Both the position numbers and the translations under genes were made by a program. The notes beneath the pieces were generated by a model that made no database searches, was not told the origin of the DNA, and saw only the letters and a list, made by a program, of their open reading frames with translations. Below, piece by piece: positions 3,794-49,485 of a stretch of DNA of 64,000 bases. The stretch is from Candidatus Melainabacteria bacterium. Its GTDB lineage: Bacteria > Cyanobacteriota > Vampirovibrionia > 2-02-FULL-35-15. Numbering within the stretch: the first letter of the stretch is position 1; each line of letters opens with the position of its first letter. Location of the stretch: NCBI GenBank assembly GCA_023250195.1, contig JAHFBF010000005.1:1-64000 (forward strand), written 5' to 3'.

Positions 3794-3844
3794 TTTCTAC
3801 CTTTTTCCTTTTTACCTCTTTACCCTTTACCTCTGTTCACCTCT

Positions 3845-5161: not shown

Positions 5162-5171
5162 CTTTTTACTC

Positions 5172-6104
5172 CTACATAAGCCCCAAAGACATTAAAAGTT
5201 TTAATGCTTGTGGATCCATCCCACCTAACATATTTGATCCACCTCCAAAGTTCGACCCACCTAACCAATTAAGTGCTGTACCTGTTGGATTGAAATTATA
5301 ATTACCACCGACTCCTAAATTAAACATTGGACTAATACCAGCACCAAATAAAGGATTTAAAGATGTTGGGAAATTCAGACCTGTCATCTGATTATTCATG
5401 AACTGTGGATTAAATCCTGGCAATCCACCACCGACATATTGACCTTGATCATTTATTCCTGATGCTGACATTAGTGATGTTTCAAATGGAGTTCCACCTG
5501 CTGGATTTATAAACATTGAAGGCATTTTTGGTGGTCTATTTGGCATGAATGTTTGTTGTCCACTTGCTGGATCAATATAACTAGCAAAACCACCACTAAC
5601 TACTTGTCCTAAAGATGGCAGGGGTCTATAAGGATTTAGACCAGGAGTTAAAACATTATTGATTCCACTTGCTTTTAAAGAATTGTCATAGTAATTTTCT
5701 AAAAGTTGATTTCGTTTATTAGCATCAGGCTCCATTATGATGTCTGACAAAGACATTTTAAATCCAGTTGGTGTTGCTAAATTAATATTCGGACGAATAT
5801 TGCTGCCAACATAATTAGGCCCTAAACCAATACCAGTTGCATTTGCAGCATTTAAATAACCAACTGGATTAATAGTGCCTGGTTTTGGTGGTTGATAGTT
5901 AGAACTATATGGAACCCCTGTAGAATTATCCCAACTACCACGTGTAGGATTCCAACTTGCACCTGGTGGTGGTTGGGAATAATCGGTGGCAATAGGTGCT
6001 GGGTTAGACGCTTTCGGGGTTGCTGTTTTTCTGTAGCTTAGGTTTGCGTCCACGTTTCTTAGTGTCGGGTTCCAAAACCCCATCATTTGTTGGGTCGTTA
6101 CCAC
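5172..6104 (-). CDS. Phage Pro/Gly/Asn-rich protein, 310 aa
   Basis: Unrecognised. It is almost entirely low-complexity (Asn, Pro, Gly, Ser, Phe), with repeated NP and GG turns and little predicted helix except around residues 110-145. It may be a structural or fibre-associated protein. The first 101 nt overlap the end of the upstream gene in another frame. No ATG lies between the overlap and residue 110 or so, hence this start, but a non-ATG start after the overlap cannot be excluded. Its composition matches the next two genes, suggesting they act in one virion substructure. Confidence 0.5.
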   Translation of the reverse strand: MVTTQQMMGFWNPTLRNVDANLSYRKTATPKASNPAPIATDYSQPPPGASWNPTRGSWDNSTGVPYSSNYQPPKPGTINPVGYLNAANATGIGLGPNYVGSNIRPNINLATPTGFKMSLSDIIMEPDANKRNQLLENYYDNSLKASGINNVLTPGLNPYRPLPSLGQVVSGGFASYIDPASGQQTFMPNRPPKMPSMFINPAGGTPFETSLMSASGINDQGQYVGGGLPGFNPQFMNNQMTGLNFPTSLNPLFGAGISPMFNLGVGGNYNFNPTGTALNWLGGSNFGGGSNMLGGMDPQALKLLMSLGLM

Positions 6105-6573
6105 TGTCCTTTTCCTCCTTTACATTGTTTTCTAAAGCATTCATAGCATCGTCAAATCTTTTCTTTTGCTCAAGGGCAAAAGAATATTCTAATTTGGAAA
6201 TATTCTTTCTAATTGTTAGAGCGTAAGTGTAGTCATATTGCACATTGTCAATTTTTAATTCATCAAAGCAATATTTAATTAATGCTTCATAGAGTTCATT
6301 GCTTTTTTCTTGATATTTAGCTACCCAGAAAATATGTGCAGTTTTTTCTTTCCCTTTTTGAATATCAAAAACTTCAATGATTCCCAAATCATCTTCAAGC
6401 GGTTTCCCGTTTACAGTGATTTCACCTCTAACAACAAAGGCTTTTTCTTTTTTTAAATCTTCAAGCCAATCAACTGCTGTTGAATACCCCCTCATTGCAC
6501 TTAACGAGCTCCCTACAATTGGCCATAAGTCATTTATGATTAGTTTCATGTGCCCATCATTTACTTGTTGCAT
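6004..6573 (-). CDS. Phage protein, possibly GNAT-like, 189 aa
   Basis: Unrecognised with certainty. Residues 1-130 form a compact alpha/beta pattern with a central strand (HIFWVAKYQ) followed by a helix (ELYEALIKYCFDEL) and an Asn/Tyr-containing segment. This is reminiscent of the GNAT acetyltransferase-like proteins found near the tail genes of many short-tailed phages. The C-terminal 50 residues are charged and Lys/Asn-rich (KKRGRKPKL) and overlap the next gene. I cannot identify an acetyl-CoA loop, so the enzyme assignment is weak. Confidence 0.45.
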   Translation of the reverse strand: MQQVNDGHMKLIINDLWPIVGSSLSAMRGYSTAVDWLEDLKKEKAFVVRGEITVNGKPLEDDLGIIEVFDIQKGKEKTAHIFWVAKYQEKSNELYEALIKYCFDELKIDNVQYDYTYALTIRKNISKLEYSFALEQKKRFDDAMNALENNVKEEKDSGNDPTNDGVLEPDTKKRGRKPKLQKNSNPESV

Positions 6574-6609
6574 ATTTTCACTCTCCCCCTTTTTTTTTCT
6601 TTTTGTTTA

Positions 6610-8913
6610 CTAATCGAAATCTTCTCCTTCTAAAATTATTTCTATAAGTGTCCAAGCAAAATTCTCCTCAAAAGAAAATATTTTGATTTGTTTTCTCTTT
6701 GAACTACCTATAGGCTTAAATCTTTTTTCAGTTAATGGTCTACCTTCTTGACTTGACCATATCAACTCAGAATTAAACTTTTCACCCCAAACACCAGTAG
6801 ATGGCTTATCTAAGAAAATCTTATAAATCCTGCCTGATTTATTTGCATTCACAATTTCAATATGAACAGTTCCAGTTGTATGGTTGGTAAATGTTGTCCA
6901 ACCTTTCGTAAAGATAAAGTATTTACCGCCTCTATCAATCCAGGGCCAAACATATTTGGCATTTCTCCTAGTTAGATTATGAGTAAAACCAGTATCTTGT
7001 TTTCTGATTTCCCCTGTATAACTTGCTGAAAACAAGTTGAAATCATCATATAAAAGACTTGCTGCATAAATTACATCTTCAATAAATGTCCAATTGTTTT
7101 GCCTATAATCAAAAATCTGGATTTTGTTGTTACCACGACTTACACCACTATAGAAACCACCGATTTCTTTGGTGGTATATTCAACTGTCTTTATAATAAG
7201 TTCATCTACAGCACCATTAAATAAATCTGAAGGTGCTATTGCACTTGAGCTGCCAATTGCTAAACCATTATTGCCACTTGTTTGTATAGTAGAAACACTA
7301 ACTGCTGCTCCTCTTTCTACACCATCACGCCATAATCTGAATTTTTTGCCATCCCAAGTAATTGCAGTGTTGTACCAAGTGCCAAGAGTTAAAGTTATAA
7401 CCTCAGTAACTTTCTGTTCTTGACCGTTGCTATCCCAAATTGAACCAACTAGCTTCTGTGTACCACCATCATTGAATAAATAAAGATCTGCATGTCCGGC
7501 AGTATGGTTTAAGTGAAAGAAATAGGCTTTGTTATTATTGCCTGGTAACGCTTGTGGTCTAATCCAAATGTTGAAAGTAAAAGCACTTAGAGCTCCCCCA
7601 ATTCCACCTGTCAAACTCAAATATTGATTTGTGCCATTTAATTTAATGGCATCTTTTAAGTATTGATTGAAGCCAGTAACAAAGGTTGCATTATTGTTGT
7701 TTATTAGGTTATATGCATTTTTGGTGGAATCTTTTATATCGTTAAAATGAAATAATGCTCTTGTATCATCTGCAATTTCTTTTTCATCCCATTCTGCATA
7801 ATCCTTAAAGTGTGAAATCCAAAGATGATTTCTTCTTTCATAATCTTCAATATATGCATAAGGGAGTGCCTTTTTTGGAATCTTATCAAACTCAGGCTGT
7901 ACTCTAAAGCTAACATTTGATTCTTCAGCTTCAGCATTTTTAATTGCAATTTGAACTGACTTTAAATAATTGCTTTGATCTAAAAAAGCTGTATCATTTG
8001 ATTGCGTTGTAACTGAATGCCTTGATTTAGTACCATGTTTTTTAATTAATAAAACAATTTTAAAAGGAACACCAACACCTGTGGTTTGCCAAATATCTGG
8101 TGGTGTATCACCAACAATTGCATAAACTGCTCTTTGTTTAAATACTAATAACCTTGCAACGTGTTCTGGTGTTGCTTTTTCCCCAATCATTTTAGTAATA
8201 GGGCCATTACCATCATTTGGTTCAATATCTACCCAACCACCACGTTGGACATCTGTCGCTGAATTGTTCCAAATGAAACAATTAAACAAAGCACCATAAT
8301 ATGCTTTGCTTGGATTATTAGGATCGCCACTTAACCAAGGACGATTTGCAAAGGTGGCACATAAACTGACAAAATCCCCAATCGTAAACTCTGGTGCTGC
8401 TGCTGTAAATTGTTGGTTTACAGTAGTAGCAGGCATATCACCATATGTTGGTTTCCAGCCTGTTAGATCACTAAGATTAGCATCACCCAATTTCCACATT
8501 TTGGTTTTATTAGTTTCACTGGTTAATATTAGAATTGGTTGGCTGACACTTTTTGCCTGGAATTGTGTTGCATCTACTTGACCACCACCAGTCACCGTAT
8601 CAATTAATGTTGCTGTACCGTTTCTATGATTTGCTGTGTACCATCTGCCAGTTGTTGAATCTTCATCTGTATAAACAACTGGGATTACATTGCCGTCTTT
8701 ATCTAAATATTCAGTTTTAAATAATGGAACCCCAATAATTTGACTAATTGGAATTGTAGTTTTACTGCCTGGGAAATTAGAGATTGCACCATCTTGTGAA
8801 AATGCAATTCCACCTAAATCATAGGCAGAACGTATATCTTGATTGCCTTCTAGCGCCCTTCTATTTAAGCCACCAATATTGTTTTTAAGATGTATTTTGA
8901 ACTTTTGTCCCAT
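6610..8913 (-). CDS. Phage tail/receptor-binding-type protein with LamG domain, 767 aa
   Basis: A large virion protein with a concanavalin-like (LamG) domain at about residues 385-595. The domain shows ALFHFND, then LNGTNQYLSL, FNIWIRP, WYNTAITWDGKKFRLWRDG and LFNGAVDELII, the usual order of LamG strands. The N-terminal 370 residues contain beta-rich repeats and a segment typical of tail tubular or stopper proteins of short-tailed phages, with many Thr, Asn and Gly. The C-terminus is beta-rich and basic. LamG domains in virions usually bind surface glycans, so host recognition is the likely role (inference). It follows the tail-tube-A-like gene by 18 bp. Confidence 0.65.
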   Translation of the reverse strand: MGQKFKIHLKNNIGGLNRRALEGNQDIRSAYDLGGIAFSQDGAISNFPGSKTTIPISQIIGVPLFKTEYLDKDGNVIPVVYTDEDSTTGRWYTANHRNGTATLIDTVTGGGQVDATQFQAKSVSQPILILTSETNKTKMWKLGDANLSDLTGWKPTYGDMPATTVNQQFTAAAPEFTIGDFVSLCATFANRPWLSGDPNNPSKAYYGALFNCFIWNNSATDVQRGGWVDIEPNDGNGPITKMIGEKATPEHVARLLVFKQRAVYAIVGDTPPDIWQTTGVGVPFKIVLLIKKHGTKSRHSVTTQSNDTAFLDQSNYLKSVQIAIKNAEAEESNVSFRVQPEFDKIPKKALPYAYIEDYERRNHLWISHFKDYAEWDEKEIADDTRALFHFNDIKDSTKNAYNLINNNNATFVTGFNQYLKDAIKLNGTNQYLSLTGGIGGALSAFTFNIWIRPQALPGNNNKAYFFHLNHTAGHADLYLFNDGGTQKLVGSIWDSNGQEQKVTEVITLTLGTWYNTAITWDGKKFRLWRDGVERGAAVSVSTIQTSGNNGLAIGSSSAIAPSDLFNGAVDELIIKTVEYTTKEIGGFYSGVSRGNNKIQIFDYRQNNWTFIEDVIYAASLLYDDFNLFSASYTGEIRKQDTGFTHNLTRRNAKYVWPWIDRGGKYFIFTKGWTTFTNHTTGTVHIEIVNANKSGRIYKIFLDKPSTGVWGEKFNSELIWSSQEGRPLTEKRFKPIGSSKRKQIKIFSFEENFAWTLIEIILEGEDFD

Positions 8914-8931
8914 TTATACCGTTTGTCCTAT

Positions 8932-9702
8932 TTACAATCCTGAATGTGCAAGCCTGGCAATATAACGGGAGGTATCAACTTCACCTGTTTCATCAATTAA
9001 AGTATGAGCAATTGAACTTTCTAAAAGTTTTTCTTCTAATTTGCCCCGTATAATACCGGCATTATTTCTATTGTCAACAGTTGCTATCCAGTCGGCTATG
9101 TAATAAACAAGTGGATCAATATCATTTATAGGAATTATTAGGTTGTCTTTGACTGTTGTTTTATCTATTTCTTCAGTCATTGCAACTTTATAAGGAATAA
9201 ATAACAATTGATTTGAAATAACCTTTGGAAAGATTGAAAAATAAATTACAGTTTTATCACTAACAGTTAATGGATTTGGATACCAAAATCTAGGTGCTTC
9301 TTCTTTAGGAACTAAAGTTTGAAATAAAGTATAAGGAATATTATTTGGTGCCCATGGAATAATATATTTAATTACTTGTTCTCTTGTAACCCTTGTAACT
9401 GGATTACCAAAAGCATTTTGTACTTCATCTTCTAAGATTCTTTCAATTAAAAAGTCTTTAGCAAAATTAGTTGCATTTACTTCATAATCTTGTGTATCTG
9501 CAACTAACTGCAAATTGACATGCTTCTTTAAATAAGTCCTACCCTCAAAGCCATAAAAGAAGCGTAAGCCTTCATTTAAAGCTACAAGGGTAGAAGCATC
9601 AAAAGAACCAGGATCCATTAAAGTATCAGTCGTGTTGTCTTCCTTACAGACACTAAGTGCCTTGTTTATAACATCTAATCCTGTAGGTATTTTTAATCCC
9701 AT
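8932..9702 (-). CDS. Phage head-tail adaptor / tail tubular protein A-like, 256 aa
   Basis: The N-terminus (VINKALSVCKEDNTTDTLMDP, split by turns), the helix around ALNEGLRFFYGFEGR and the DTQDYEV hairpin resemble the tubular/adaptor proteins that sit under the portal in short-tailed phages. The length (256 aa) is also usual for that role. No signal peptide and no enzyme motif were seen. It sits between the small 193-aa gene and the large LamG tail gene, the normal place for a neck protein. The family is assigned from layout and general similarity, not from a diagnostic motif. Confidence 0.5.
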   Translation of the reverse strand: MGLKIPTGLDVINKALSVCKEDNTTDTLMDPGSFDASTLVALNEGLRFFYGFEGRTYLKKHVNLQLVADTQDYEVNATNFAKDFLIERILEDEVQNAFGNPVTRVTREQVIKYIIPWAPNNIPYTLFQTLVPKEEAPRFWYPNPLTVSDKTVIYFSIFPKVISNQLLFIPYKVAMTEEIDKTTVKDNLIIPINDIDPLVYYIADWIATVDNRNNAGIIRGKLEEKLLESSIAHTLIDETGEVDTSRYIARLAHSGL

Positions 9703-9730
9703 CTTTTATTTTTTACCTTTTATCTTGTGC

Positions 9731-10312
9731 TTAAACTGCAACTGCTACCTTTCTTTTTTTAGGGATCTTTTTACCAAGGATTTTTACTACTTTTCCTTCA
9801 CTAGTAATTTCTTCAATTACATCTTCATCTCTTGATTTCTTTTGTTTTTCTTTGATAATTTTGTCAACGTCAATGCTGTATTTAGTACCTTGTGGGACTT
9901 CTTCATAAACAACATCTTTCATGTGGGTAAGAAAAATCTTATCCTTTTTAAATTTCTTGATGTTACCTGTGATTGCTTTCCCTTGTGAGCTCAATCTAGT
10001 CCTTGCATTCATCAAGAAACCTTCTAATGGTGTTGGTGTATACTTGCAAATTTCACTTCCACCTTCATAAGCCAGCATTTCAGCTTTAATAGGTAAGCAA
10101 ACATCTTTTGCTCTATCAATACCATCAATATTTGCAATAGTGATTTTTACAAATTCTTCCCATTCTTCCGGTGTGTAATTATTAGGATGAACAACATTTA
10201 GTAATTGATACTTTGCCTGTAGTACTTCACGACCTAATTCAGTGACTTGCACACCTTCATATTTCACTTGCGTATTTAAATTGGCTATCCTTGAGTAATA
10301 AATTCTTGCCAT
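9731..10312 (-). CDS. Phage unknown, 193 aa, after the capsid gene
   Basis: Unrecognised. It begins MARIYYSRIANLN, has a mixed alpha/beta first 110 residues, and ends in a strongly basic tail (about residues 120-193, many Lys, ending KKRKVAVAV). A capsid-associated or DNA-contacting role would fit the basic tail and position, but nothing proves it. It is the first gene after the terminator that follows the major capsid gene, so it probably has its own promoter or depends on read-through. Confidence 0.5.
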   Translation of the reverse strand: MARIYYSRIANLNTQVKYEGVQVTELGREVLQAKYQLLNVVHPNNYTPEEWEEFVKITIANIDGIDRAKDVCLPIKAEMLAYEGGSEICKYTPTPLEGFLMNARTRLSSQGKAITGNIKKFKKDKIFLTHMKDVVYEEVPQGTKYSIDVDKIIKEKQKKSRDEDVIEEITSEGKVVKILGKKIPKKRKVAVAV

Positions 10313-10345
10313 AAACCCTCCTTTTGATTTTTTTGAACCAAAAGA

Positions 10346-10373
10346 AAAGGCAGGACTTTTACCTCCTGCCTTT
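10346..10373 (-). terminator. Intrinsic terminator after the capsid gene
   Basis: Perfect 10-bp arms AAAGGCAGGA (10346-10355) and TCCTGCCTTT (10364-10373) with an 8-nt loop. On the minus strand the stem is followed by TTTTCTTTTGG. It lies 34 bp past the stop of the capsid gene. Confidence 0.85.
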
Positions 10374-10406
10374 GAACGTAGTTTAGTTGGATTGTTTAAG
10401 CTATTC

Positions 10407-11636
10407 CTAGGTTATGCCGTGTAAGTAAATTGCAGTTTCAGGATAATGCAGCACACCACCCATCTCACCAATTACATGCCATTTACCACCATCCCCAGTT
10501 TTACCGAGTTGTTCTACAGCAAAATCCCTCCCGTTTAATGGTGCAAGGTCATATTGCTCCTTTCGGACAATTACCATTTCATCATCAAATAAACAGAAAG
10601 GTGGAACTACTACAAAATCAACTGGGAGAGGCCCAGCATAAGTGCCTATATAGTTGGATAAATAAATATCTTTCTGTTCCCTTCTGACTCTATTTGGTTC
10701 AAGTACATTGACTCTGTTTTTGCAGGTTGCATTCACAAAGCCAATATATGGGCTAGGACCAAAGCTATTTGGATTACCCCCTTCAGATAGTTCTTTTTCA
10801 ATTGGACCATCTAAATTAACAACTTTTGCAAGTTGTGCATCCATAACAGGAGTTGATAAAGCACCAGCTACATCTAAGGTAATACCGTTGAAACGCTTAA
10901 TGGCGTCTATAATTCCGCACATATTACGATCTTCAGCAGCACCGGTGATTGTGTTTTTCTTTGTAGTACTTGCACCATGAACACCACGGAATAGTGCTTG
11001 GTATAACTTTACGTTTTCAAGATGATCTAATGCCCTTCTTACAAGGTCATTAAATCTAGCATCACCGTTTGCAATCATTTTTTCAATGGCTTGTGTTGTA
11101 CCTGAGATTTCAAGATTTCTCTTGAAGATTTGGGTAAAATACGTTTGCCTGATTGATGTAAAATGATCGGAGCCGTTGTGTTGACTGTTTTCTGATAAAG
11201 TTTCTGAACCTACAATCACCTTATTATTTGCTGTACCATCACTAGCAGCAGTACCGTCAATGCCTCTAATTACATTGTCTAATGTAATTAGAGTATTTGT
11301 TTCAGTAATATCACTTGCTACGGCACTTGTGAATATGGTTTCACCTGTTGCTGGAAAATGAATCTTTTGATTTATTCTTACTAGCATTGGTGTTGCCAGA
11401 TCTTTTTTAAGTACGATTGTAGTATCCCCAGCTAGATAATCAGCATTGACCAAACCCATGTCAAAGTAGTTTGTTCCATGTGGATTTTCAATTACTGGTG
11501 TTTCCCATGCTTTGCCCCTTTTCATATAAAGGTCTAAAGCACGTCTTTTACCTGCACTTCTAACTTCAAGTGTGGTAAGTAGATTTTCCCTTAATGTATC
11601 CGGTGTATAGGATACAAGGGCAGCTAATATAAACAT
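10407..11636 (-). CDS. Phage major capsid protein, 409 aa
   Basis: The most likely major capsid protein. It follows the Gln-rich scaffold gene, has a HK97-fold-like alpha/beta composition, and is followed by a strong terminator, as highly expressed capsid genes often are. The helix around RQTYFTQIFKRNLEISGTTQ and the region LVRRALDHLENVKLYQALFRG resemble the DUF5309/SU10-type major capsid proteins I know of. That family name is from memory and should be tested. The C-terminus (MGGVLHYPETAIYLHGIT) is beta-rich. No N-terminal delta domain is evident, which agrees with a separate scaffold gene upstream. Confidence 0.7.
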   Translation of the reverse strand: MFILAALVSYTPDTLRENLLTTLEVRSAGKRRALDLYMKRGKAWETPVIENPHGTNYFDMGLVNADYLAGDTTIVLKKDLATPMLVRINQKIHFPATGETIFTSAVASDITETNTLITLDNVIRGIDGTAASDGTANNKVIVGSETLSENSQHNGSDHFTSIRQTYFTQIFKRNLEISGTTQAIEKMIANGDARFNDLVRRALDHLENVKLYQALFRGVHGASTTKKNTITGAAEDRNMCGIIDAIKRFNGITLDVAGALSTPVMDAQLAKVVNLDGPIEKELSEGGNPNSFGPSPYIGFVNATCKNRVNVLEPNRVRREQKDIYLSNYIGTYAGPLPVDFVVVPPFCLFDDEMVIVRKEQYDLAPLNGRDFAVEQLGKTGDGGKWHVIGEMGGVLHYPETAIYLHGIT

Positions 11637-11660
11637 AATTAGTTACTCCTATCTTTAGGA

Positions 11661-12530
11661 TTAACCTGCTGCTTTGGTTCTGAGTTTTTGCAACTCAAAA
11701 TCCAATTTCATGATCTGATTTTGATCAACAGGCTTCCCAGCTTTTGCATCAGCTTTTAACTGTGCAAGGTCTTGCTCTTTCTGAGCAATAACATCCCCTG
11801 TACTTAGGGAACTTGCAGTTTGACCACCGTAGTCAGACTGACTTGAAAACTTTTGTTCATTAGGCTTTGGTGCAGGTGGATTTCCATCACCAGTTTTTAC
11901 TAAAGTTATTAATCTTCCAGCACTTGCCAAATCATAGGCTGCAACAATTTGATTGGCGATTGGTAAATGTCCAAATTCTGCTTCAAAGGCTGGATCACGT
12001 CTTAGTCTGTCTGCCTCTGCATCAATAACTGGTAATAATTGCTCCAATTGCACATTTGATGCAGCAGGTTTAAAACCTTGTTTAATATGATTTTGCAAAT
12101 TAATTTTGACATTGCCAACTGTTTGTTCTGTTTGCAAACCATATAATTCTTCCCTGACAATTTTTCTTGTTGAATCATCAGTTGAAAATGCAGCACCACT
12201 GGCAGGATCAACATTCGTATTGTTGTTTGTATTGTTATTGCTATTGTTTCCACCGGCACTGCTTGCTTGTGCACCACCAGCTTCATATTGTTGTAATTTA
12301 GTTTGATAATGCTGTATTTTTTGTGCTTGTGAATTATGGGCAGCTTCCCATTGCTTATTTTTATCTTCTGCTACTTTCAGTTTTGCAATATATTCAGTTT
12401 CAGTTAGCCTTTGTTCACCTGTTGGTTGAGGCTGTGCAAGAGCTCCACCATTAGCAGCACCAGTATTATTTGCCTGCTCTGCTGTTTTAGTTTCTTGATT
12501 GTTTTGTGTTTCTGTTGAATTTATTGACAT
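11661..12530 (-). CDS. Phage scaffold-type protein, 289 aa
   Basis: Acidic, Gln/Asn/Ala-rich protein directly before the capsid gene. Residues about 45-90 form a coiled-coil (TETEYIAKLKVAEDKNKQWE), followed by a poly-Asn/Ser/Gly linker (about 90-115). A helical middle and a C-terminal helix rich in Lys and Leu (about 235-285) complete it. Position, acidity, coiled coil and length are those of capsid assembly scaffolds. A basic C-terminal helix that docks on the capsid protein is common in such proteins. No protease triad was found, so it is a scaffold rather than a protease fusion. Confidence 0.65.
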   Translation of the reverse strand: MSINSTETQNNQETKTAEQANNTGAANGGALAQPQPTGEQRLTETEYIAKLKVAEDKNKQWEAAHNSQAQKIQHYQTKLQQYEAGGAQASSAGGNNSNNNTNNNTNVDPASGAAFSTDDSTRKIVREELYGLQTEQTVGNVKINLQNHIKQGFKPAASNVQLEQLLPVIDAEADRLRRDPAFEAEFGHLPIANQIVAAYDLASAGRLITLVKTGDGNPPAPKPNEQKFSSQSDYGGQTASSLSTGDVIAQKEQDLAQLKADAKAGKPVDQNQIMKLDFELQKLRTKAAG

Positions 12531-12593
12531 AATTTTTACCCCCTAAGTTAAAATTGCTCGCAAAATATTGCTTGCAAGATATTGCCCTCAAAA

Positions 12594-12626
12594 CAAAAAA
12601 AACAGGCTTTTAACCTGTGTTTTTTA
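12594..12626 (-). terminator. Terminator between the 163-aa gene and the scaffold gene
   Basis: Stem ACAGG (12602-12606) with CCTGT (12614-12618), extended by A- and T-tracts on both sides, so it could work on either strand. On the minus strand the hairpin is followed by a run of T. Next to it, at 12555-12586, an imperfect short repeat built on TTGC...GCAA...ATA occurs twice just upstream of the scaffold start. Confidence 0.7.
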
Positions 12627-12677
12627 TCTTCTTTTATCTGTTGAAGGTTGCAGTGATCTAACTAACTTAGCTTGTGG

Positions 12678-13169
12678 TTAACTTGTAGATTCAATCAATT
12701 CTTGTGCCTCTTTAGAATCTTTAATTGGCTGCATATTGAGGATCTCACTGAATAAGGTTTTAACATCTGCAATTGCTCTTTGTAATTCACATCTATTATG
12801 ATCTGCAATTATTTGACCAATAAAATCATGCTTATCTAAAACACCACTGACTGAAACACGATCAAATAAATTAAATAAATATTGGATTGCAAAGACTTCT
12901 TGTCCTTCTGTATTTTTAAAGGTCACAGTATCTAATGATTGAAAAGCTAAATAATGATCTTTGTATTTATTCCATCTGTAGATAAGTTCTTTAACACTAT
13001 ACTTTTTATTTTCAACTTGATTCCTTCTTCTTTGCCTACTTACTTGTGGGAGTAAATCACCTTCAAAACGTTCAGCTTGGGATTCCCTAACAATTTCTTT
13101 TTCTTCTTCAACTTCAAGCGGAAGAAGACCATCTAATTGCATTGCCCTTCTATATGGATTGTTATACAT
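12678..13169 (-). CDS. Phage unknown, 163 aa, after the portal
   Basis: Unrecognised. The N-terminal 50 residues are charged with many Arg and Glu. The rest appears helical (KYSVKELIYRWNKYKDHYLAF, then LFSEILNMQPIKD). There is no signal or membrane segment. Its start abuts the portal stop with no spacing (13169/13170), so it is co-translated with the portal. A head-completion or portal-associated role is possible but not shown. Confidence 0.5.
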   Translation of the reverse strand: MYNNPYRRAMQLDGLLPLEVEEEKEIVRESQAERFEGDLLPQVSRQRRRNQVENKKYSVKELIYRWNKYKDHYLAFQSLDTVTFKNTEGQEVFAIQYLFNLFDRVSVSGVLDKHDFIGQIIADHNRCELQRAIADVKTLFSEILNMQPIKDSKEAQELIESTS

Positions 13170-15002
13170 TTATTGTGCTCCTGCCATTACTGGGTTTTGC
13201 CCTGCAGGTTGTTGTCCTTGTAGTTGTCCTTGTAGTTGTCCTTGTAGTTGTCCTTGATTTTGCCCAGGTTGTTGTTGTCCTTTTTGCCCTTGTTGTTCAG
13301 CACTGATTTGTGCAATTTCCTGCTCAGTATAATAAAACTTTTCAGGATTACTAACACCTGAGTTTTCCCATTCTTGAGCACAAACCTCATTCCATTTGGT
13401 GTATTGAACACTTGGTGTCTTACTAACTGTAATACTTGAATCCCTGAATGCTTGTTGACTTTGCAATCTTTCAATTACTGATCTTGTACCAATTGGAATA
13501 ATATCTGTTAATTCTGGTGGTGTTGCTAGTACAGACATGAAACGCATATCATTGAACTTCATATAGATTTCTTCTGTAGAATAACCAGCTTGTTTAAACC
13601 AGAATAAAATCGCAGAATCGTCTTTTGTCCTTTGTGGTTCACCAGATTGTGGATCAAAACCAACAATTGGAAACATTTGATCAAAGACATTTTCAATTAC
13701 TTCAAATGCAATAACTTGAATGTATCTATTGTCCCAATGTCTTGCTAAAGCACCTGCTCTTCCTTGTGCAGCTTGCATTTGTTGATTTGCAACAGTTGCA
13801 AAACCTGGTTGTGTATCAACGCCAGAATGTACCGTTTGTGCATTTGTTAGAACATAAGCCTGACTAGAAAACCAATCAAATACTTCCCTTGCAAATTGCC
13901 TTCTATTAGCTCTTGGTATTGGTTCAAGCTGGCTTTGTCCAGTTTTTGGCCACTTTGCAAATGGCCTCATTTTCCAATATTTTGCAAGTTGTCTTGTGGT
14001 ACGGTCTGCCCAGTTATATGAAACACCGCCCATGTTATCTAAAAGACCGCCAATTAATTCAATAGCAGCCATGGTGTTTATAGAACTTTGAATACCGAGA
14101 ATTGGCTTTACAATGCCTTCACCAAATACCTCACCTTTAGTAACTCTTTCAAATGGTAAGTGAAAGATAGAATTAGCTTTTCTGTTATTTGAAAGCTGGG
14201 TAAATCTTAAAAGTAAACTTGGTGTTTTAGAAATAGTTATAATTATATTTCTAAACTTTGTACCATCTGAGGCTTTCCAGCTAGGTATGTGTGCTTCATA
14301 TAAAATGTGTCCTGCCCCATATCTAATATTTCCACCTTCATCATTGCGATAAGGGTTTACTTTTGGTACTTGATTTTTAGTATTTGTTTCATCCCCAACT
14401 TTATGTACTGGGGCATCTAACTTATCAACAGCTTCTTTAATATATGGTAATTGGCTTTCTTCAAGTTCAAAGCCTGTTTTTCTTAAAAGAATTACTCTAT
14501 TTACAGTTGAAATATCTTTTGCTTGTGGATAGATTCTAATATCAGCACCAGCAATTGGTTCAGCTTTAGTAAAAGGCCCTTCAAATAAGGTTCTAAAAAA
14601 TACATCACCAGTAATTGAACCTTCTAAAACAGCTTCTTCAGTTTCTTCTTTGTATGCAGTTTTAGTAAGATTTTTAGTTGCAACCTTTGCCCAAAATTCA
14701 CCAGTAAGTTCAGTATCTACTCTTAAAAATCTATCACCTGGAAATATTAGGTTTGTAACTGTTGTAGTTGTACTATCTACAATTGTTGGTGTCAGTGGTA
14801 AAAATACCCTGTAATCCTGAACCCAGCTTTCTTCTTCACTTAAAGTTGTGGTGAAGTTTTGTTTATAAGCATCAAAACAATTGGCATTTTTATTTAATCT
14901 TTGTGGATGTGCCCCACATTGCCATAAACCTAAGACAAGTGATATTAATTCACTTTCATATTTTTCATCTAACTTTACTTGGTTTCTTGGAATTAATGCC
15001 AT
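13170..15002 (-). CDS. Phage portal protein, 610 aa
   Basis: Located directly after the large terminase and of typical portal length (500-700 aa). The order of helical and mixed segments matches portals of short-tailed phages: an N-terminal wing with VQDYRVFLPLTPTIVDS, the membrane-contact-like turn near LIFPGDRFLRVD, and a long helix-rich C-terminal half. The last 50 residues are extremely Gln/Gly-rich (Q-G-Q-L repeats) and come from a 12-bp tandem repeat. A Gln-rich C-terminal tail could project into the capsid. It forms the dodecameric DNA channel at one vertex. Confidence 0.7.
   Translation of the reverse strand: MALIPRNQVKLDEKYESELISLVLGLWQCGAHPQRLNKNANCFDAYKQNFTTTLSEEESWVQDYRVFLPLTPTIVDSTTTTVTNLIFPGDRFLRVDTELTGEFWAKVATKNLTKTAYKEETEEAVLEGSITGDVFFRTLFEGPFTKAEPIAGADIRIYPQAKDISTVNRVILLRKTGFELEESQLPYIKEAVDKLDAPVHKVGDETNTKNQVPKVNPYRNDEGGNIRYGAGHILYEAHIPSWKASDGTKFRNIIITISKTPSLLLRFTQLSNNRKANSIFHLPFERVTKGEVFGEGIVKPILGIQSSINTMAAIELIGGLLDNMGGVSYNWADRTTRQLAKYWKMRPFAKWPKTGQSQLEPIPRANRRQFAREVFDWFSSQAYVLTNAQTVHSGVDTQPGFATVANQQMQAAQGRAGALARHWDNRYIQVIAFEVIENVFDQMFPIVGFDPQSGEPQRTKDDSAILFWFKQAGYSTEEIYMKFNDMRFMSVLATPPELTDIIPIGTRSVIERLQSQQAFRDSSITVSKTPSVQYTKWNEVCAQEWENSGVSNPEKFYYTEQEIAQISAEQQGQKGQQQPGQNQGQLQGQLQGQLQGQQPAGQNPVMAGAQ
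13214..13256. repeat. 12-bp tandem repeat in the portal gene
   Basis: The unit GTCCTTGTAGTT occurs three times plus a partial fourth copy, coding for repeated Q-G-Q-L on the minus strand. The unit is a multiple of 3, so copy number can vary without breaking the frame. Confidence 0.9.
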
Positions 15003-15015
15003 ATCTTATCTTCAT

Positions 15016-15924
15016 TTACCTGCCAAAGTGAAATCCTTTTCTTAATCCTTTTTCTAACTCAAGAAACTCACTGCCTGGTTTTTCTAGTTGGCTTATTTCA
15101 TGTTCTAGTGGTTCTTCATATCTAAAGAAATGCCAAATGGCATAACGCCATAAATCCCCAATGTGGATATATACTCCGTCAACTTCAGGCTTCGGTTTAC
15201 TTTGTTTATCTACATGCTCTGGATAATGCCAACCACCTTTAAAGGTATCTAGTGACATTTGACAGTTTGGATTTACTGTAATTAAGCCAGCTTTACTAAA
15301 AACATCAGTTACTAAGGCTAATGACTGTCTATAAACATCACTAGTCATATGGTAACTAATCATGTTAGTTCCAAAATGCTTTTCAACTATTTCAGCAGCT
15401 TTACCTGGAACACCTTGATTGTTTTCATAAGTGCCAGCATGATCGCCAATTACAATGAAATCCCATTTGCCACTGTTGTAAAAAGGACTATCTTTGTCTT
15501 TAAACTCTGCAAGTAACCTTTTACAGATACTGTCAATGTCAATTTCAAAACCAGATTGTCTTTGTGGTTTAACTGACTTATGAATTAATAATCTGCCACC
15601 AGGTGCTTGTCCAATACCATAAGCTGGATTAGTTCCACCAAAATCAAAGGCTAAAACTAATGGACTATCTTTTAGAACACCAGGGTAATTAGCTGTATGT
15701 GTTAGTGCATTAAAACACTCAACAACTGGCTTACCAAGAAAAGTTTCAAATCTTAGACAATGTTCAGTTAGAAAGTTCCTATAATCCTGATACTTAACTG
15801 ATATTTTAAGTAAATCTTCAAACGATTTACCAGCATCTTTTGGACTAACACCATAAACTAATTGCCCACTTTTATTTATCCTTGGTTTTAAGACTTTCAG
15901 GTTCTTTGGAATGCTTTGCCACAT
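15016..15924 (-). CDS. Terminase large subunit, nuclease part, 302 aa
   Basis: Carries the RNase H-like nuclease domain of the packaging motor. Visible acidic residues in the right order are D94 (LAFDFGGTNPAYG), D161 (FIVIGDHAGTYE) and D257 (IHIGDLWRYAIWHFF). Together with the next upstream frame it makes a normal terminase of about 545 aa. The frame is shifted relative to the ATPase part and overlaps it by 53 nt. The ATG at 15924 has no clear ribosome binding site. It may be translated by frameshift, by re-initiation as its own gene, or be the result of a mutation or sequence error. Confidence 0.75.
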   Translation of the reverse strand: MWQSIPKNLKVLKPRINKSGQLVYGVSPKDAGKSFEDLLKISVKYQDYRNFLTEHCLRFETFLGKPVVECFNALTHTANYPGVLKDSPLVLAFDFGGTNPAYGIGQAPGGRLLIHKSVKPQRQSGFEIDIDSICKRLLAEFKDKDSPFYNSGKWDFIVIGDHAGTYENNQGVPGKAAEIVEKHFGTNMISYHMTSDVYRQSLALVTDVFSKAGLITVNPNCQMSLDTFKGGWHYPEHVDKQSKPKPEVDGVYIHIGDLWRYAIWHFFRYEEPLEHEISQLEKPGSEFLELEKGLRKGFHFGR

Positions 15925-16666
15925 ATTCGTTCCTGGCTTTTATCCACTGTTCCATTGTTGGAATATCAAATGTGCCTAAATGCTGATCGTATGAAATCCC
16001 AATTACTGGTGTTTCTTTGACTTCCTCTTCAAAACTATTACTATGCAATGTGGTTGAGTTTTTAAAGAACTTACCAGAGTGCATTGCTGCTGTGGCTTCA
16101 CGTTTTAATCTTTCATATAAATGCGGTGGGTCAAACTTAGTAACTTCATCAGCTACATAAACATCAGGTGTTTTACCAGTAATGTTTAAAGGGTTCTTAC
16201 TAAATGCAGTAAAGTTATTATCCAAATGCTGTATTTTCCAAGAACCTGTTGTAAAATCTTTAAACTCATTTGGCAATTGAAAATCAAAATGATCAGTTAT
16301 TCCTTTTGCTCTATTAACAACATCAAATGCATGTTCTTCAGTTATTGAATGCCAGAATGCTAAGAAGCTGACTTCGCTCAACATATCATGGTTAATACAT
16401 TTAGTTATTGTCCAAGTCCAGTGGATTTGCCTTTCTTTATATGAAACTGTCTCAGAGCCTAAAGGAGCCTCAATATACAAGCTAACAATATCTTCAATGT
16501 AAGGTAATCTAGGAGTTAATTCCCATCTTTTGGTTTCTTTGTTTGGTGAATAACATTTGTCAAAAATGAAATCATGCTTTTTATCACGGTAATAATCAAG
16601 GATTTGAAGGCTTCTTATTAGTCCTTTTGTGTCTATGTGAGAGAATCTGTTTGACTGCTTCACCAA
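15872..16666 (-). CDS. Terminase large subunit, ATPase part, 264 aa
   Basis: Carries the ATPase half. A Walker B with catalytic Glu is clear (DVYVADE, D173/E174), followed by a coupling-type motif (STTLHSNS, about 204-211). The expected Walker A position (YKERQIHWTWT, about 76-86) lacks the usual Gly-Lys-Ser/Thr ending. The start is TTG (16666) or GTG (16663), with no ATG in the first third, and it overlaps the small subunit gene by about 70 nt. It ends shortly after LKTKDK, while the nuclease half continues in another frame. Confidence 0.7.
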   Translation of the reverse strand: MVKQSNRFSHIDTKGLIRSLQILDYYRDKKHDFIFDKCYSPNKETKRWELTPRLPYIEDIVSLYIEAPLGSETVSYKERQIHWTWTITKCINHDMLSEVSFLAFWHSITEEHAFDVVNRAKGITDHFDFQLPNEFKDFTTGSWKIQHLDNNFTAFSKNPLNITGKTPDVYVADEVTKFDPPHLYERLKREATAAMHSGKFFKNSTTLHSNSFEEEVKETPVIGISYDQHLGTFDIPTMEQWIKARNEYVAKHSKEPESLKTKDK

Positions 16667-17075
16667 AATCTAATCCTTTATGTTCTAGTTCTTGTTTTTG
16701 AACTGTTTTTCCTGTGTATGTGCCTTTAACTTTTAGTCCATCAAAGATTGCTTTTGCTACTTCTTCTACACTTTTAGCTTTAAGACCAGTGTCTTTTAGT
16801 TTAGTAATTAACTTAGCAACTGCAAAATCTATTACAGCTACCTCATCTAGAGATTTCTTTGCTTGTTCAGTAGAAGATTGTTCAATGATTTTTTCATTTG
16901 TTTTTGCTTTAAAATTGCGTTTCTCATCTGCCCAGTTATATTTATTGTGCCAAGTGCGTAAAGTATCAAAGTTGATGTTTTCTTCTTTGGCTATTTGAGC
17001 TAAAGAGATGTTGTTTATAAACTTAAGAAGAGAACGGGCTTTAACTTCTTGTGGATATTTTTTCAACCTTGACAT
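16596..17075 (-). CDS. Terminase small subunit, 159 aa
   Basis: DNA-recognition subunit of the packaging terminase. An N-terminal helix-turn-helix is visible at about residues 22-50 (ISLAQIAKEENINFDTLRTW), followed by WHNKYNW, as in gpP/terS-type HTH proteins. A helical oligomerisation region follows (about 70-115), and the basic C-terminus (SHRHKRTNKKPSNP) may contact the large subunit or DNA. It overlaps both neighbours: 35 nt with the methyltransferase and about 70 nt with the ATPase frame. Such overlaps are usual in compact phage operons. Confidence 0.75.
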   Translation of the reverse strand: MSRLKKYPQEVKARSLLKFINNISLAQIAKEENINFDTLRTWHNKYNWADEKRNFKAKTNEKIIEQSSTEQAKKSLDEVAVIDFAVAKLITKLKDTGLKAKSVEEVAKAIFDGLKVKGTYTGKTVQKQELEHKGLDFGEAVKQILSHRHKRTNKKPSNP

Positions 17076-18282
17076 TTGGTTTTAATTTCTTATACCTTTC
17101 TATAATCACATCACAGTAAATCGGATCTATTTCTAGTCCATAGCAAGTACGATTAAACTTTTCTGCTGCTATTAATGTAGTACCTGAGCCAAGAAAAGGA
17201 TCGTAAATAATATCATCAATCTTAGTATTGTTTTTTATAGGCTTTGCCATGCATTCTAATGGCTTTTGAGTTGAATGCCCTGTTCTTTCTTCTTTTTCTT
17301 TTGAAAATGCACTATTATTTGATATTTGCCATGTAGTAGATTGATCTCTTGCTCCTTGCCAATTGTGGTTTTTCCCTTTCCTAACTGCATACCAACATGG
17401 TTCATGCTGCCAGTGGTAATCTCCTCTTGAAAATACAAAATGTTGTTTTACCCATATGATTTGGCTTATGATTATAAAATTACAATCTTCAAGATTTTGA
17501 TTTACTGTTTTACTATGTACACCTGCATGCCAAATATATGCAATATCGCCAGGGAATAGTTTATATGCCCTACTCCAATCAATTAATTCATCATTATTTA
17601 CTTTTCCTGTTGCTCTTGTTCCAAGGTTTCCATCAAATTCTTCTCTCCACATAGGATCATAATTAACACCATAGGGAGGATCAGTAACCATTAATACTGG
17701 GATTATTTTATTTAACAGACAATCAACATTTTCTTTTTTTGTACTATCACCACATAATAACCTATGCTTACCGTCTAGGATATATAGGTCACCTGGTTTA
17801 GTTTTTGGCTTCTTTATTCTTGCTGCTTCTGATTCAGCATCAAAATTATCTTCTTCAATCTCTTCCAAGTTTAATTCTGATATTTCTTTTAGATCTTCTT
17901 CAGTAAATCCAGTTGTATAATCATCTAAATCGTCAATGTCTTTTTCTTCTAAATCTATTGATTTAATATAATCTTCTAATTTTAAATAATCCCATTCACC
18001 AGATATTCGATTTAAGGCTAGATTAGCTGACTTTTGTTTTTTCTTTGACCAGTTGACATAAATAACTGGGATTTCAGTTAGACTTTGTTTAACTGCTGCT
18101 TTTACTCTTTGGTGACCACCTACAATTTGATTTGTTCGTTTGTTATATATTACTGGTTGAATAAAACCATATTGGACTAAGCTCTCTTTCAAATTATCGA
18201 GTGTTTCCTCTGAGATTCTTCGAGGATTTTCTAAGTCTGGTAATAATTCTTGAGGATTAATCCACTCTAGTTTTAATTTCAT
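17041..18282 (-). CDS. ParB-domain DNA methyltransferase, 413 aa
   Basis: Fusion of an N-terminal ParB/Srx-like domain (about residues 5-95, with NPRRIS and GGHQRVKAA) and a C-terminal amino-methyltransferase. The catalytic DPPYG is at about residue 203 and the SAM-binding FLGSGTT near residue 368, followed by YGLEIDP. An acidic linker (about 110-160) separates them. It modifies adenine-N6 or cytosine-N4 in DNA. This architecture is common next to phage terminases and usually stands without a partner nuclease; none is seen here. Likely roles are protection from host restriction or marking DNA for packaging (inference). It starts 3 bp after the small gene upstream. Confidence 0.85.
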   Translation of the reverse strand: MKLKLEWINPQELLPDLENPRRISEETLDNLKESLVQYGFIQPVIYNKRTNQIVGGHQRVKAAVKQSLTEIPVIYVNWSKKKQKSANLALNRISGEWDYLKLEDYIKSIDLEEKDIDDLDDYTTGFTEEDLKEISELNLEEIEEDNFDAESEAARIKKPKTKPGDLYILDGKHRLLCGDSTKKENVDCLLNKIIPVLMVTDPPYGVNYDPMWREEFDGNLGTRATGKVNNDELIDWSRAYKLFPGDIAYIWHAGVHSKTVNQNLEDCNFIIISQIIWVKQHFVFSRGDYHWQHEPCWYAVRKGKNHNWQGARDQSTTWQISNNSAFSKEKEERTGHSTQKPLECMAKPIKNNTKIDDIIYDPFLGSGTTLIAAEKFNRTCYGLEIDPIYCDVIIERYKKLKPNVKVEKISTRS

Positions 18283-20312: not shown

Positions 20313-21452
20313 ATGATAGCGGTCAATTTTTCACAACCTCATATAATTATTGGATTAGATGTTCACTCTCAACTAATTAGAGCGATCGCCAAGGATGAAC
20401 AATTTAATACCGTATATGACCGTATAGTTAAACAAGATAGAAAAGATTTTGAAGACTTTTACCAATCTGTTACTTTAATCAGTGAAAATAAAACAATATT
20501 CTGGGGAAGAGAGGCTAGTGTTTATAGTACATGGATTGATAATTTCCTTTTTAAAAAAGGACATGATATTTTAAATGTTGATACTAAGTTAGTTAAAAAA
20601 TGGCGACAAGGGATAAATGTAGAAAAATCGGATTACATCGATTGTGAAGCAATTGTCTCAGCAGTTAGATTTGAATCTAAAAAAGTAAGGCAATTAACTT
20701 TAGAGTTTGAAGATGATTATTATAAAGAACTTAGATCTTTAACTAGGGAAAGACTAAAGCTCTCCTACGACATAATGAGGGTTAAAAGTGAACTTCACCA
20801 CGCTTTATTTAAATCATTAAGTCCTAAATACAAAACCTTTTTTAAGAATAAATCAATGTTTGGTGATGCGTGGATTAAAGAAGCCCTTGAATATTTTGCT
20901 CCATTTGACGACATGCACTCTTTTCTTATTATTCGCAAATTAAAAAAACTTAAAGTTTATGAACAAGATGCAGATGATTTGGATATCTTACTAAAAAAAA
21001 TAGCAAATAAAGAAATAAAAGCATTATGCAAAATTAAAGGTATTAATCTGGTTTTAGCGTCAGGTATTGTAGGTGAAATTGGTAACATAGATAGGTTTGA
21101 AACACCTGACAAATTAGCAAGATGGGGAGGAATTGCACCATTAGAAGATTCTTCTGCTACAGATAAAGATGACAAAGATAAAGCCCCAACGCATAGATTG
21201 GATCTTAGAGGAAATGGTTATTTTGATCATTATGTTTATCACGTTTCTGTAACTCAAACTAGAGACGGGAAATCTGGTTATGCACCAGCTCAAAAATACT
21301 TTGCTAAGAAAGGAGGCTTAAGTAAGAACAAAAAAACAAAGAAAGACACAAGAAGAAAACATAAAAGGAAATTAGTTAATGTTATTTTTAGAACTATTAA
21401 GCAAGCCAGATTATTGCCGGAAACAAAGTTTTCTAAAAGAATAAGGAATTAA
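20313..21452 (+). CDS. IS110 family transposase, 379 aa
   Basis: RuvC-like DEDD domain at the N-terminus: D16 (GLDVHS), E67 (GREASVYS), D107 and D110 (KSDYIDCEAI). A coiled helical middle (about 125-235) follows. The C-terminal Tnp domain has a helix-hairpin-helix (CKIKGINLVLASGIVGEIG) and ARWGGIAPLEDSSA, where the serine nucleophile of this family is expected. The length is usual for IS110 (about 300-420 aa). The frame is intact, so the element may be active. It is read opposite to both flanking regions. The basic C-terminus (KKTKKDTRRKHKRK) is longer than in many relatives. Confidence 0.9.
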   Translation: MIAVNFSQPHIIIGLDVHSQLIRAIAKDEQFNTVYDRIVKQDRKDFEDFYQSVTLISENKTIFWGREASVYSTWIDNFLFKKGHDILNVDTKLVKKWRQGINVEKSDYIDCEAIVSAVRFESKKVRQLTLEFEDDYYKELRSLTRERLKLSYDIMRVKSELHHALFKSLSPKYKTFFKNKSMFGDAWIKEALEYFAPFDDMHSFLIIRKLKKLKVYEQDADDLDILLKKIANKEIKALCKIKGINLVLASGIVGEIGNIDRFETPDKLARWGGIAPLEDSSATDKDDKDKAPTHRLDLRGNGYFDHYVYHVSVTQTRDGKSGYAPAQKYFAKKGGLSKNKKTKKDTRRKHKRKLVNVIFRTIKQARLLPETKFSKRIRN

Positions 21453-23748: not shown

Positions 23749-25371
23749 ATGTCATATAAAGATCTAAGAGAATTTCTAAAGAAACTTGATGGGTTGGGAG
23801 AGCTGGCTAAAATTAGCACCCAGGTTAATCCCTATCTTGAAATTTCTGAAATTACAAACTCTGTCTCAAAAGGCCCTATAGACAAAAATAAAGCTTTATT
23901 ATTTGAAAATATTAAAGGATATCAGATTCCAGTTTTAATTAATACTTTGGGTTCTTATAAAAGAATGAATCTTGCCCTGGGTGTTAATTCTTTTAAAGAG
24001 ATTGCAGAAAGGATTGAAAAGTTCCTAGACAAAAAGGTCCCTGATAATTTGCTCGGGAAGCTTGGCATGATTCCAAAACTGCTTGAAGCAGCATCTTTTC
24101 CTCCTAAATTAATAAGCAGTGCAAATTGTCAGGAAGTAGTGATTACAAATCCAGATGAACCAATGCTAGATAAGCTGCCTATTATCACAGCATGGCCTAG
24201 CGATACAGCTCCATTTATAACCATGACAGCAGTGATTACTAAAGATCCAAAGACAGGCACCAGAAATGTAGGAATGTACCGACTGCAAAAGTTAGATAAC
24301 AATACTACCTGTATGCACTGGCATAAACATCATGATGGAGCACAGAATTATATAGAACAAAGAGGTGAGAGATCAGAGATCAGAGCTGAGATGACTGACA
24401 AACTTGGGCAAGAGATTGAAAGCAATGGAGAAGAGTTTGGATCACGTCATTGCGAGGAGTCCGCCTTTAGCGGACGACGAAGCAATCTCACAAACGTTAT
24501 GGAGATTGCTTTGCCTTTGGCTCGCAATGACGTGTCTCGCAAGATGGACATAGCTGTAGCTATTGGTTGCGATCCGGCTGTTATGTATGCAGCTTCTGCA
24601 CCACTCCCTCCGGGAATTGATGAGTTTATCTTTGCTGGATTTCTAAGAGGTTCACCCGTTGAACTTGTTAAGTGCAAGACTGTAGATCTTGAAGTCCCGG
24701 CAACAAGTGAAATAGTTTTAGAAGGCTATGTAGATTTAGATGAGCTTACTGTTGAAGGTCCATTTGGAGACCATACTGGATTTTATAGCCCGGCAGGCTT
24801 ATTTCCAAAGTTTCATATTACTGCAATGACACACAGAAAAGATCCGATTTACACTACGATCATTGTAGGAAAACCACCAATGGAAGACTGCTATATGGGC
24901 AAAGCTACTGAACAAATATTCTTACCTTTAATCAGAGTCTTTCTTCCTGAAGTTGTAGATTTAAATCTTCCACTGGAAGGGGTTTTCCACAACTGTGCAA
25001 TTGTCAGTATAAAAAAGAAATATCCTGCACATGCAAAAAAAGTCATGAATGCCATCTGGGGAATGGGACAGATGATGTTTACAAAATATATTATTGTTGT
25101 AGATGATGATATAGACATTCACAACCTGTCAAACTTAGCCTTTCATGTTTTTGCAAATACAGATCCAAAAAGAGATTCTCTTTTTACCGAAGGACCGACA
25201 GATATTCTGGATCACGCATCAGACGTAATGGCTATTACAGGGAAAATGGGTTTAGATGCTACCAAGAAATGGAAATCAGAAGGATATACCCGTGAATGGC
25301 CGCAGGAAATGGTCATGGATAGCGCTACTAAAGAGTTAGTAAAAAAACAATGGAAGGAATACGGATTGTAA
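23749..25371 (+). CDS. UbiD family decarboxylase, 540 aa, with in-frame repeat insert
   Basis: Prenylated-FMN-dependent decarboxylase family (ubiquinone/menaquinone-type UbiD). MHWHKHHDGA, MDIAVAIGCDPA, LPPGIDEFIFAGFLRG, EGPFGDHTG and the C-terminal WPQEM region are all present. Between HHDGA and MDIAV there are about 67 residues where relatives have fewer than 20. Residues about 232-262 are encoded by a 92-bp palindromic repeat, and the segment before it is also low-complexity (ERSEIRAEM). The frame stays open through the insert. Total length is 540 aa against about 490 in E. coli UbiD. The physiological substrate is not certain. The next gene starts right at its stop codon. Confidence 0.88.
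   Translation: MSYKDLREFLKKLDGLGELAKISTQVNPYLEISEITNSVSKGPIDKNKALLFENIKGYQIPVLINTLGSYKRMNLALGVNSFKEIAERIEKFLDKKVPDNLLGKLGMIPKLLEAASFPPKLISSANCQEVVITNPDEPMLDKLPIITAWPSDTAPFITMTAVITKDPKTGTRNVGMYRLQKLDNNTTCMHWHKHHDGAQNYIEQRGERSEIRAEMTDKLGQEIESNGEEFGSRHCEESAFSGRRSNLTNVMEIALPLARNDVSRKMDIAVAIGCDPAVMYAASAPLPPGIDEFIFAGFLRGSPVELVKCKTVDLEVPATSEIVLEGYVDLDELTVEGPFGDHTGFYSPAGLFPKFHITAMTHRKDPIYTTIIVGKPPMEDCYMGKATEQIFLPLIRVFLPEVVDLNLPLEGVFHNCAIVSIKKKYPAHAKKVMNAIWGMGQMMFTKYIIVVDDDIDIHNLSNLAFHVFANTDPKRDSLFTEGPTDILDHASDVMAITGKMGLDATKKWKSEGYTREWPQEMVMDSATKELVKKQWKEYGL
24443..24534. repeat. GTCATTGCGAG palindromic element inside ubiD-type gene
   Basis: The 92-bp element has perfect 14-nt terminal inverted repeats, CACGTCATTGCGAG (24443-24456) and CTCGCAATGACGTG (24521-24534). 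Internal inverted parts are AGCAATCTC (24481-24489) and GAGATTGCT (24502-24510), plus a small GTCCGCC/GGCGGAC-like stem. It is read through in frame. Related copies lie at 28072, 46073 and 48417. Confidence 0.92.
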
Positions 25372-28071: not shown

Positions 28072-28199
28072 CACCATTGCGAGGAGCGCAGCGACGTGGC
28101 AATCTCACAAATATGAATAAGTTATGGGGATTGCTTCGCTCCGCCTTGTCGGAGACGAGGCGGAGCGGGCCAGCACTTTGTGCTTCCTCGCAATGACAC
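28072..28199. repeat. GTCATTGCGAG palindromic element, intergenic copy
   Basis: Starts with CATTGCGAGGAGCGCAGCGA and ends with TTCCTCGCAATGAC. It contains GGCAATCTC and GGGATTGCTTCG internally. At about 128 bp it is longer than the copy in the ubiD-type gene, with an extra internal stem of TCCGCC/GGCGGA type. It lies between pmbA and pyrF. Confidence 0.9.
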
Positions 28200-46072: not shown

Positions 46073-46141
46073 CTTGCGGCAATCTCCTAACATTTTGGAG
46101 ATTGCTTCGTCACAACCAAGTTACTCCTCGCAATGACACGT
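46073..46141. repeat. GTCATTGCGAG element, 5'-truncated copy
   Basis: Contains GGCAATCTCC and GGAGATTGCTTCG and ends with CCTCGCAATGACACG. The left terminal repeat is missing. Lies 30 bp before purL. Confidence 0.82.
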
Positions 46142-48416: not shown

Positions 48417-48510
48417 ACGTCATTGCGAGGGCTTTAGCCCGAAGCAATCTCCCTAACTTTTTCACACTTTGAGATTGCCACGCCTCATTTTATTCGGCTC
48501 GCAATGACAT
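48417..48510. repeat. GTCATTGCGAG element after purL
   Basis: Ends CGTCATTGCGAG (48418-48429) and CTCGCAATGACAT (48498-48510). Internal GAAGCAATCTC and GAGATTGCC. Lies between purL and the sulfotransferase gene, whose stops face each other. Confidence 0.9.
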
Positions 48511-49451: not shown

Positions 49452-49485
49452 TGGGTTTAGTATAGCAAAACAGGGGAGCATAAGT

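Follow-up and report, generated by a model that had tools for sequence, protein, structure and literature searches.

Architecture of the element and its surroundings

The window, a stretch of 64,000 nucleotides from a Candidatus Melainabacteria (Vampirovibrionia) contig (JAHFBF010000005.1), contains an intact gene for a UbiD-family decarboxylase that carries a palindromic element in its reading frame, together with three further copies of the element between genes:

23749..25371, plus strand: UbiD-family decarboxylase, 540 aa, intact (Pfam UbiD_N, UbiD and UbiD_C)
24443..24534, plus strand: palindromic element in frame in the UbiD gene, residues 232–262; dimer of two inverted CGTC-type REP half-units
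24443..24456, plus strand: left terminal inverted repeat CACGTCATTGCGAG, perfect 14-nt arm
24459..24475, plus strand: side-hairpin module of the left half (TCCGCC...GCGGA), a predicted fold with module variants across copies
24478..24513, plus strand: central hairpin CGAAGCAATCTC...GAGATTGCTTTG around an AACGTT spacer, from arms and fold
24521..24534, minus strand: right terminal inverted repeat, CACGTCATTGCGAG, perfect 14-nt arm
28072..28198, unstranded: copy between genes that contains an additional nested hairpin (CGCTCCGCCTTGTCGGAGACGAGGCGGAGCG); orthologous copy in the sister species
46079..46138 (about), minus strand: intergenic copy, partly degraded, upstream of purL
48418..48509, unstranded: intergenic copy downstream of purL; orthologous site occupied in the sister species

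An earlier sequence-only reading had described a 92-bp element with perfect 14-nt terminal inverted repeats, translated in frame as residues about 232–262 of the UbiD protein, and three further intergenic copies; all of these are found at the positions above, with the two arms of the 92-bp element perfectly complementary. Elsewhere in the window, a block of minus-strand ORFs (114–18282) looks, by reading, like prophage genes for virion structure and DNA packaging (portal-, terminase- and capsid-like), and the ORF at 20313–21452 resembles an IS110-type transposase, again by reading. The sulfotransferase-like ORF at 48522–49559 has an apparent N-terminus, SRDSSLTLRMT, that resembles another translated repeat.

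Apart from the arms of the UbiD element, the window has no perfect 14-nt inverted pair separated by 40–110 nt, and 20 shuffled windows contained one such pair in all; the palindrome exceeds chance. Its predicted RNA fold has an energy of −50.1 kcal/mol (z −8.6) and its predicted single-strand DNA fold a z of −9.3, and both folds are one closed structure composed of the 14-bp terminal stem, the side hairpin and the central hairpin, with the CGTC tags of the two half-units predicted to pair with each other. Judged from the variants among copies, the left-half side-hairpin module appears to be an exchangeable part of the element. A search of the window against Rfam gave no match at gathering score, and no intron or other RNA family at the element. 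Conceptual translation yields the 31 residues SRHCEESAFSGRRSNLTNVMEIALPLARNDV, within which SNLTNVMEIALPLAR is an example of a tryptic peptide; the element is probably translated into protein.

The UbiD enzyme and its variable loop

The genome has a single UbiD gene, that of the window, and the nearest named relatives of its protein belong to Candidatus Melainabacteria genomes (RIFCSPLOWO2_02_FULL_35_15 and others). Roughly 100 residue positions are invariant across 36 UbiDs, and all are kept in the protein encoded in the window. Comparison with the sister species G002, in which the insert is also present, gives dN 0.087 and dS 1.12, and comparison with G001, which is without the insert, gives dN 0.088 and dS 1.11. 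The dN/dS ratio is thus about 0.08 both with and without the insert, and the gene is under strong purifying selection. An AlphaFold2 model built with 36 sequences (mean pLDDT 81) is well folded outside the insert loop, and among PDB entries it matches E. coli UbiD (5m1d) best. Residues 210–261, between the helix 196–205 and the strand 265–272, mostly have pLDDT below 50, and the element-bearing loop is predicted to be left disordered. It is likely that enzyme function has not been lost through the insert.

The sister species carries the same element at the same UbiD site (RHCEESTLGGRRSNLTNVMEIASPLARNDVSRK), with 84 of 88 nucleotides identical. G001 and other genera hold unrelated sequence (KSSVLLKEK...SSRK) where the element sits, so the site is not a simple clean insertion, and when the element arrived here, older loop residues were lost or replaced. 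The length of the loop is highly variable across the whole class; the element therefore sits in a permissive part of the enzyme. Residues 205–231 constitute an older, family-wide loop extension (RAxMTDxLGQEVExxG) outside the element; of the segment 205–262, which the sequence-only reading had expected close homologs to lack, only residues 232–262 are the element. The same reading had counted unrelated sequence in relatives against an insertion. Such sequence is literally what the relatives carry, owing to the hypervariability of the loop; the repeat family and its other target genes settle the question. A UbiD 90% identical to that of the window occurs on a contig labelled Deltaproteobacteria (L105, JAHFAK010000153.1), which is probably a wrongly binned Melainabacteria contig.

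A repeat family within the Melainabacteria

Exact GTCATTGCGAG ends occur 61 times per strand in the host genome (a draft of 2.21 Mb in 7 contigs), 122 in total, and the reversed control gave 0. In the 283 kb around these ends, 89 end sites resolve into 58 paired elements of 78–127 bp, while several unpaired sites among the 89 are chance matches; as this inventory covers only stretches around repeats, a few copies in contigs C6 and C7 may be missing from it. A class II aldolase ORF (C6:323609) is probably a chance match, as are some of the weak single ends, those with 2 mismatches; the counts leave these aside. Each half-unit consists of CGTCATTGCGAG, a hairpin module, GACG(AA/TG/CG)GCAAT and CTC, and two half-units in inverted orientation flank a short, AT-rich spacer that is often AACGTT. 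The hairpin modules vary between copies, some of which contain an extra nested hairpin. Within the family, genomes have 9–289 ends each; many other families of the class have almost none, and shorter CGTC units are present in some Cyanobacteria proper.

In-frame copies in other genes

Analysis of ORFs in the host genome places internal in-frame copies in RecJ, LigA, MnmG, PrmC, a NagB-like protein and TrmL, with a partial copy in the PurC–PurS linker. In-frame invasion of protein genes of the kind known from Rickettsia, as the sequence-only reading proposed, is therefore seen in at least six other conserved genes of the genome, and is further backed by the occupied UbiD site of the sister species and by empty sites in relatives. 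Since an ORF list is biased to open frames, relatives (ten family members) were searched through the flanks with the element removed. Sites empty of the element were found in TrmL of G001, G003, G006 and G010 and in RecJ of G001, those in TrmL being the cleanest. Full copies are present in LigA of G002 and G003, MnmG of G005, RecJ of G007, and TrmL and PrmC of G002, and shrunken remnants occupy the same loops in LigA of G009 and MnmG of G002. The RecJ and PrmC loops of G005 are occupied by another palindrome family. All insertions found by flank homology lie in one frame and contain no stops. In these copies, translation gives RHCE or VIAR/IIAR at the left end and, in nearly every case, xxND at the right.

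The sequence-only reading had suggested counting how often copies fall in coding frames. A minority are intragenic, about one in ten in the host genome, rising to as many as three in ten in small samples from congeners. Among the elements sampled in G002, 7 of 24 are internal and in frame, in genes read as PurL, MtnA (twice), a MetH-like protein and a nuclease with three copies; in G001 the proportion is 3 of 16, in MnmA, ValS and a surface-type protein (names by reading, not by family search). When elements were removed in silico from the host genome, no conserved gene that was clearly broken came to light at the examined copies, and the few longer ORFs that resulted were mostly neighbouring genes joined together.

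The idea that the elements are adapted to coding was considered and rejected. Internal copies have a mean of 2.0 open frames out of 6, other copies 1.62 and random DNA 1.48, a level of openness barely above that of random DNA. As the elements are not specially open for coding, selection after insertion would do the sorting.

Relation to known palindromic repeats

In-frame insertion of a REP-type sequence is already known as a kind. In-frame palindromes have been described as Rickettsia palindromic elements, or RPEs (Ogata et al. 2000, 2002, as cited in PMC10969869), and two of them from Rickettsia conorii, RPE-4 and RPE-6, have been placed in the superfamily of CGTC-tagged REPs (Di Nocera et al. 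2013, PMC3733652). The published CGTC REPs have a stem of 8–9 bp, a loop of 4–5 nt and a CCA tail, are mostly intergenic but lie inside ORFs in several bacteria, and were listed for five phyla, Cyanobacteria not among them (PMC3733652). The Melainabacteria elements share with them the CGTC (or TGTC) tag, with which the 58 dimers mostly begin and end, a stem starting with AT (ATTGC...GCAAT in most half-units), and the predominance of head-to-head dimers (58 among 89 sites). Both groups are mostly intergenic with some members in ORFs, and, as with the published repeats, no dedicated transposase was found for the elements here. In contrast, the units are longer, with side or second hairpins, and the tail is mostly CTC rather than CCA. 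As its stem, loop and tail depart from the lengths published, we file the element as CGTC-like and do not place it in any of the four published CGTC REP families.

The likeness to RPEs, especially RPE-4 and RPE-6, lies in repeated palindromes of about 100 bp found in frame in many unrelated housekeeping genes; it is drawn from published descriptions, with the standing of RPE-4 and RPE-6 as CGTC REPs taken from PMC3733652. The host is a member of the Melainabacteria rather than Rickettsia, the elements are dimers with exchangeable and nested hairpin modules, and insertion, remnant and empty states are seen at the same loops across several Melainabacteria genera. The data support an element that acts in the manner of RPEs in a lineage new to them. 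Like bacterial MITEs, the elements are short, have terminal inverted repeats, reach high copy number and have no coding of their own, but neither a target-site duplication nor a parent insertion sequence sharing their ends was seen.

Proposed origin and persistence of the in-gene copies

The elements probably move by transposition. Sites gave no consistent target-site duplication, only matches of 2–5 nt that overlap the palindrome ends, and the UbiD flanks are too diverged to provide a clean empty site. A PF01797 search of the host genome returned two RAYT-like Y1 genes, with no element within 1.5 kb of either. Across the family, the presence of such genes does not track element copy number, and many-copy genomes can lack them; no dedicated transposase for the elements was found.

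Taken as a whole, the observations are very probably best explained by a mobile, non-autonomous palindrome whose in-gene copies are kept where they lie in frame and in tolerant loops. The element would be a MITE- or REP-like palindrome of two inverted CGTC-type half-units that spread to many copies in this Melainabacteria family, now and then hitting a gene, where copies would survive only if the frame was kept and the loop was tolerant of length and probably exposed. In UbiD, it would have entered an already variable loop between the helix 196–205 and the strand 265–272, an event that most likely predates the divergence from the sister species, and its predicted translation is a disordered loop of 31 residues that leaves the enzyme core intact. 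Over time, copies may acquire or shed hairpin modules or be reduced to remnants (VIASPLARND, for instance), turning palindromes into loop sequence.

The slow drift of the element bears on how such copies persist. Between the host and G002, the four changes in the 88 compared nucleotides of the UbiD element are all non-synonymous, while the flanking codons have pS 0.58 and dS 1.12; if sites are independent, the probability of so few synonymous changes is about 3e-7. Between different genera, the LigA element of the host and G003 has dS 0.09 vs 1.54 outside the element, and one intergenic orthologous pair shared with the sister species is identical at 86 of 89 positions. Other orthologous sites have rearranged modules. 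Near-absent synonymous change between species is not what neutral decay of a dead insertion predicts, and can be explained in part by each of three causes: constraint, homogenisation among copies, and repeated insertion at a site.

One alternative, somewhat unlikely as an account of the shared sites, is that a target preference brings independent hits to the same positions, such that shared occupancy would not be shared descent and low divergence would reflect recent insertion or gene conversion. Consistent with this, the dimers are clearly different at some orthologous sites (LigA and PrmC of the host and G002, and several intergenic sites), the element flanks show a weak preference for C at −7 and CA at −2/−1, and in G005 the same loops of RecJ and PrmC contain palindromes of different families. 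However, the UbiD copy of G002, at 95% identity, is nearer than any full-length paralogue within the host genome, the closest of which is only 82% identical and thereby argues for shared descent. The spacer and right boundary of the UbiD element are also the same in G002, as fits one ancestral insertion, and the TrmL copies likewise share their core and both boundaries.

It is rather doubtful that the intragenic palindrome is maintained and not merely tolerated, with a DNA or RNA structure or the encoded loop being functional and conserved at the nucleotide level, for example in mRNA stability, in translational pausing or as a binding site for a nucleoid or repair protein. The synonymous differences in the UbiD and LigA elements are as few as such constraint would give, and one change in the UbiD element preserves a G-C/G-U pair; the intergenic pair is also nearly identical. 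Against this, the element is lost or its modules are exchanged at other orthologous sites, most family members do without it at each site, copy number is as patchy as the range of ends per genome indicates, and the non-synonymous changes speak against constraint on the peptide.

Palindromic intervening sequences in 23S rRNA are cut out by RNase III. By that precedent, and given a very stable closed structure with paired ends, the element might be removed from the message (RNase III excision or splicing-like removal) or skipped by the ribosome through programmed bypass. This is very improbable, as the insertions found by flank homology keep the frame and contain no stops, neither of which removal or bypass would need; the near-random openness of the elements and the Rfam result at the site also count against it. 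An assembly chimera, frameshift error or pseudogene, which a draft in 7 contigs might suggest and of which the sequence-only reading had named frameshift and assembly error as threats to its own account, is excluded for practical purposes by the same insert in an independently assembled congener, by the purifying selection on UbiD and by the retention of its invariant positions.

Palindromes as a proposed source of protein loops

A broader proposal, which we advance tentatively, is that palindromic repeats in this bacterial family would be a continuing source of new protein loops. Several palindrome families would enter the same loops of many housekeeping enzymes, and these loops would be reshaped as modules are exchanged and inserts shrink; function or homogenisation would keep the inserted DNA itself almost unchanged while its host gene drifts. 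So far, in-frame palindromes have mostly been regarded as a peculiarity of Rickettsia. Here, at least 12 housekeeping enzymes in a lineage of another phylum have in-frame palindromes, and a series of empty, full, remodelled and remnant states is visible across related genera, so that the part proposed for selfish palindromes in the evolution of protein loops can be tested directly. The spread across a Melainabacteria family, the repeated use of the same loops and the near-absent synonymous change in the element are new. Literature searches with the motif itself returned only chance matches in primers, and within the open-licence literature no paper was found that links Melainabacteria with palindromic repeats. 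For annotation, segments such as RHCEE..., VIARS... and ...ARND in proteins of this kind should be taken as repeat-derived.

Further repeat-derived segments

The other palindrome families (GTCATTCCCGGCTTGATCGGGAAT... and GGGGCTTG...CAAGCCCC) occupy the same loops at loci L218 (RecJ of G005) and L232 (PrmC of G005), and further such loci are L225 (PrmC of G003) and L237 (G009). In the host genome, PrmC (C6:346714-347718, L096) has a second, different repeat-derived insert (HVIPAKAGIQ...VKPGMT) at residues ~102–130, upstream of the CGTC-type dimer in the same protein, and the nuclease-like ORF of 277 aa in G002 (L259) contains three separate in-frame palindromic inserts. In genes for exported proteins at C2:364491, C6:315521, C6:402057 and C6:584002, the element comes after the apparent start codon and before the core of the signal peptide; because the element's own ATG (CGCAATGAC) could be the start codon there, it may not truly have inserted into a coding region at these sites. 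At C2:246809, C2:349310 and C6:311816, elements provide the last residues and the stop codon of ORFs read as MurE, LpxD and LspA.
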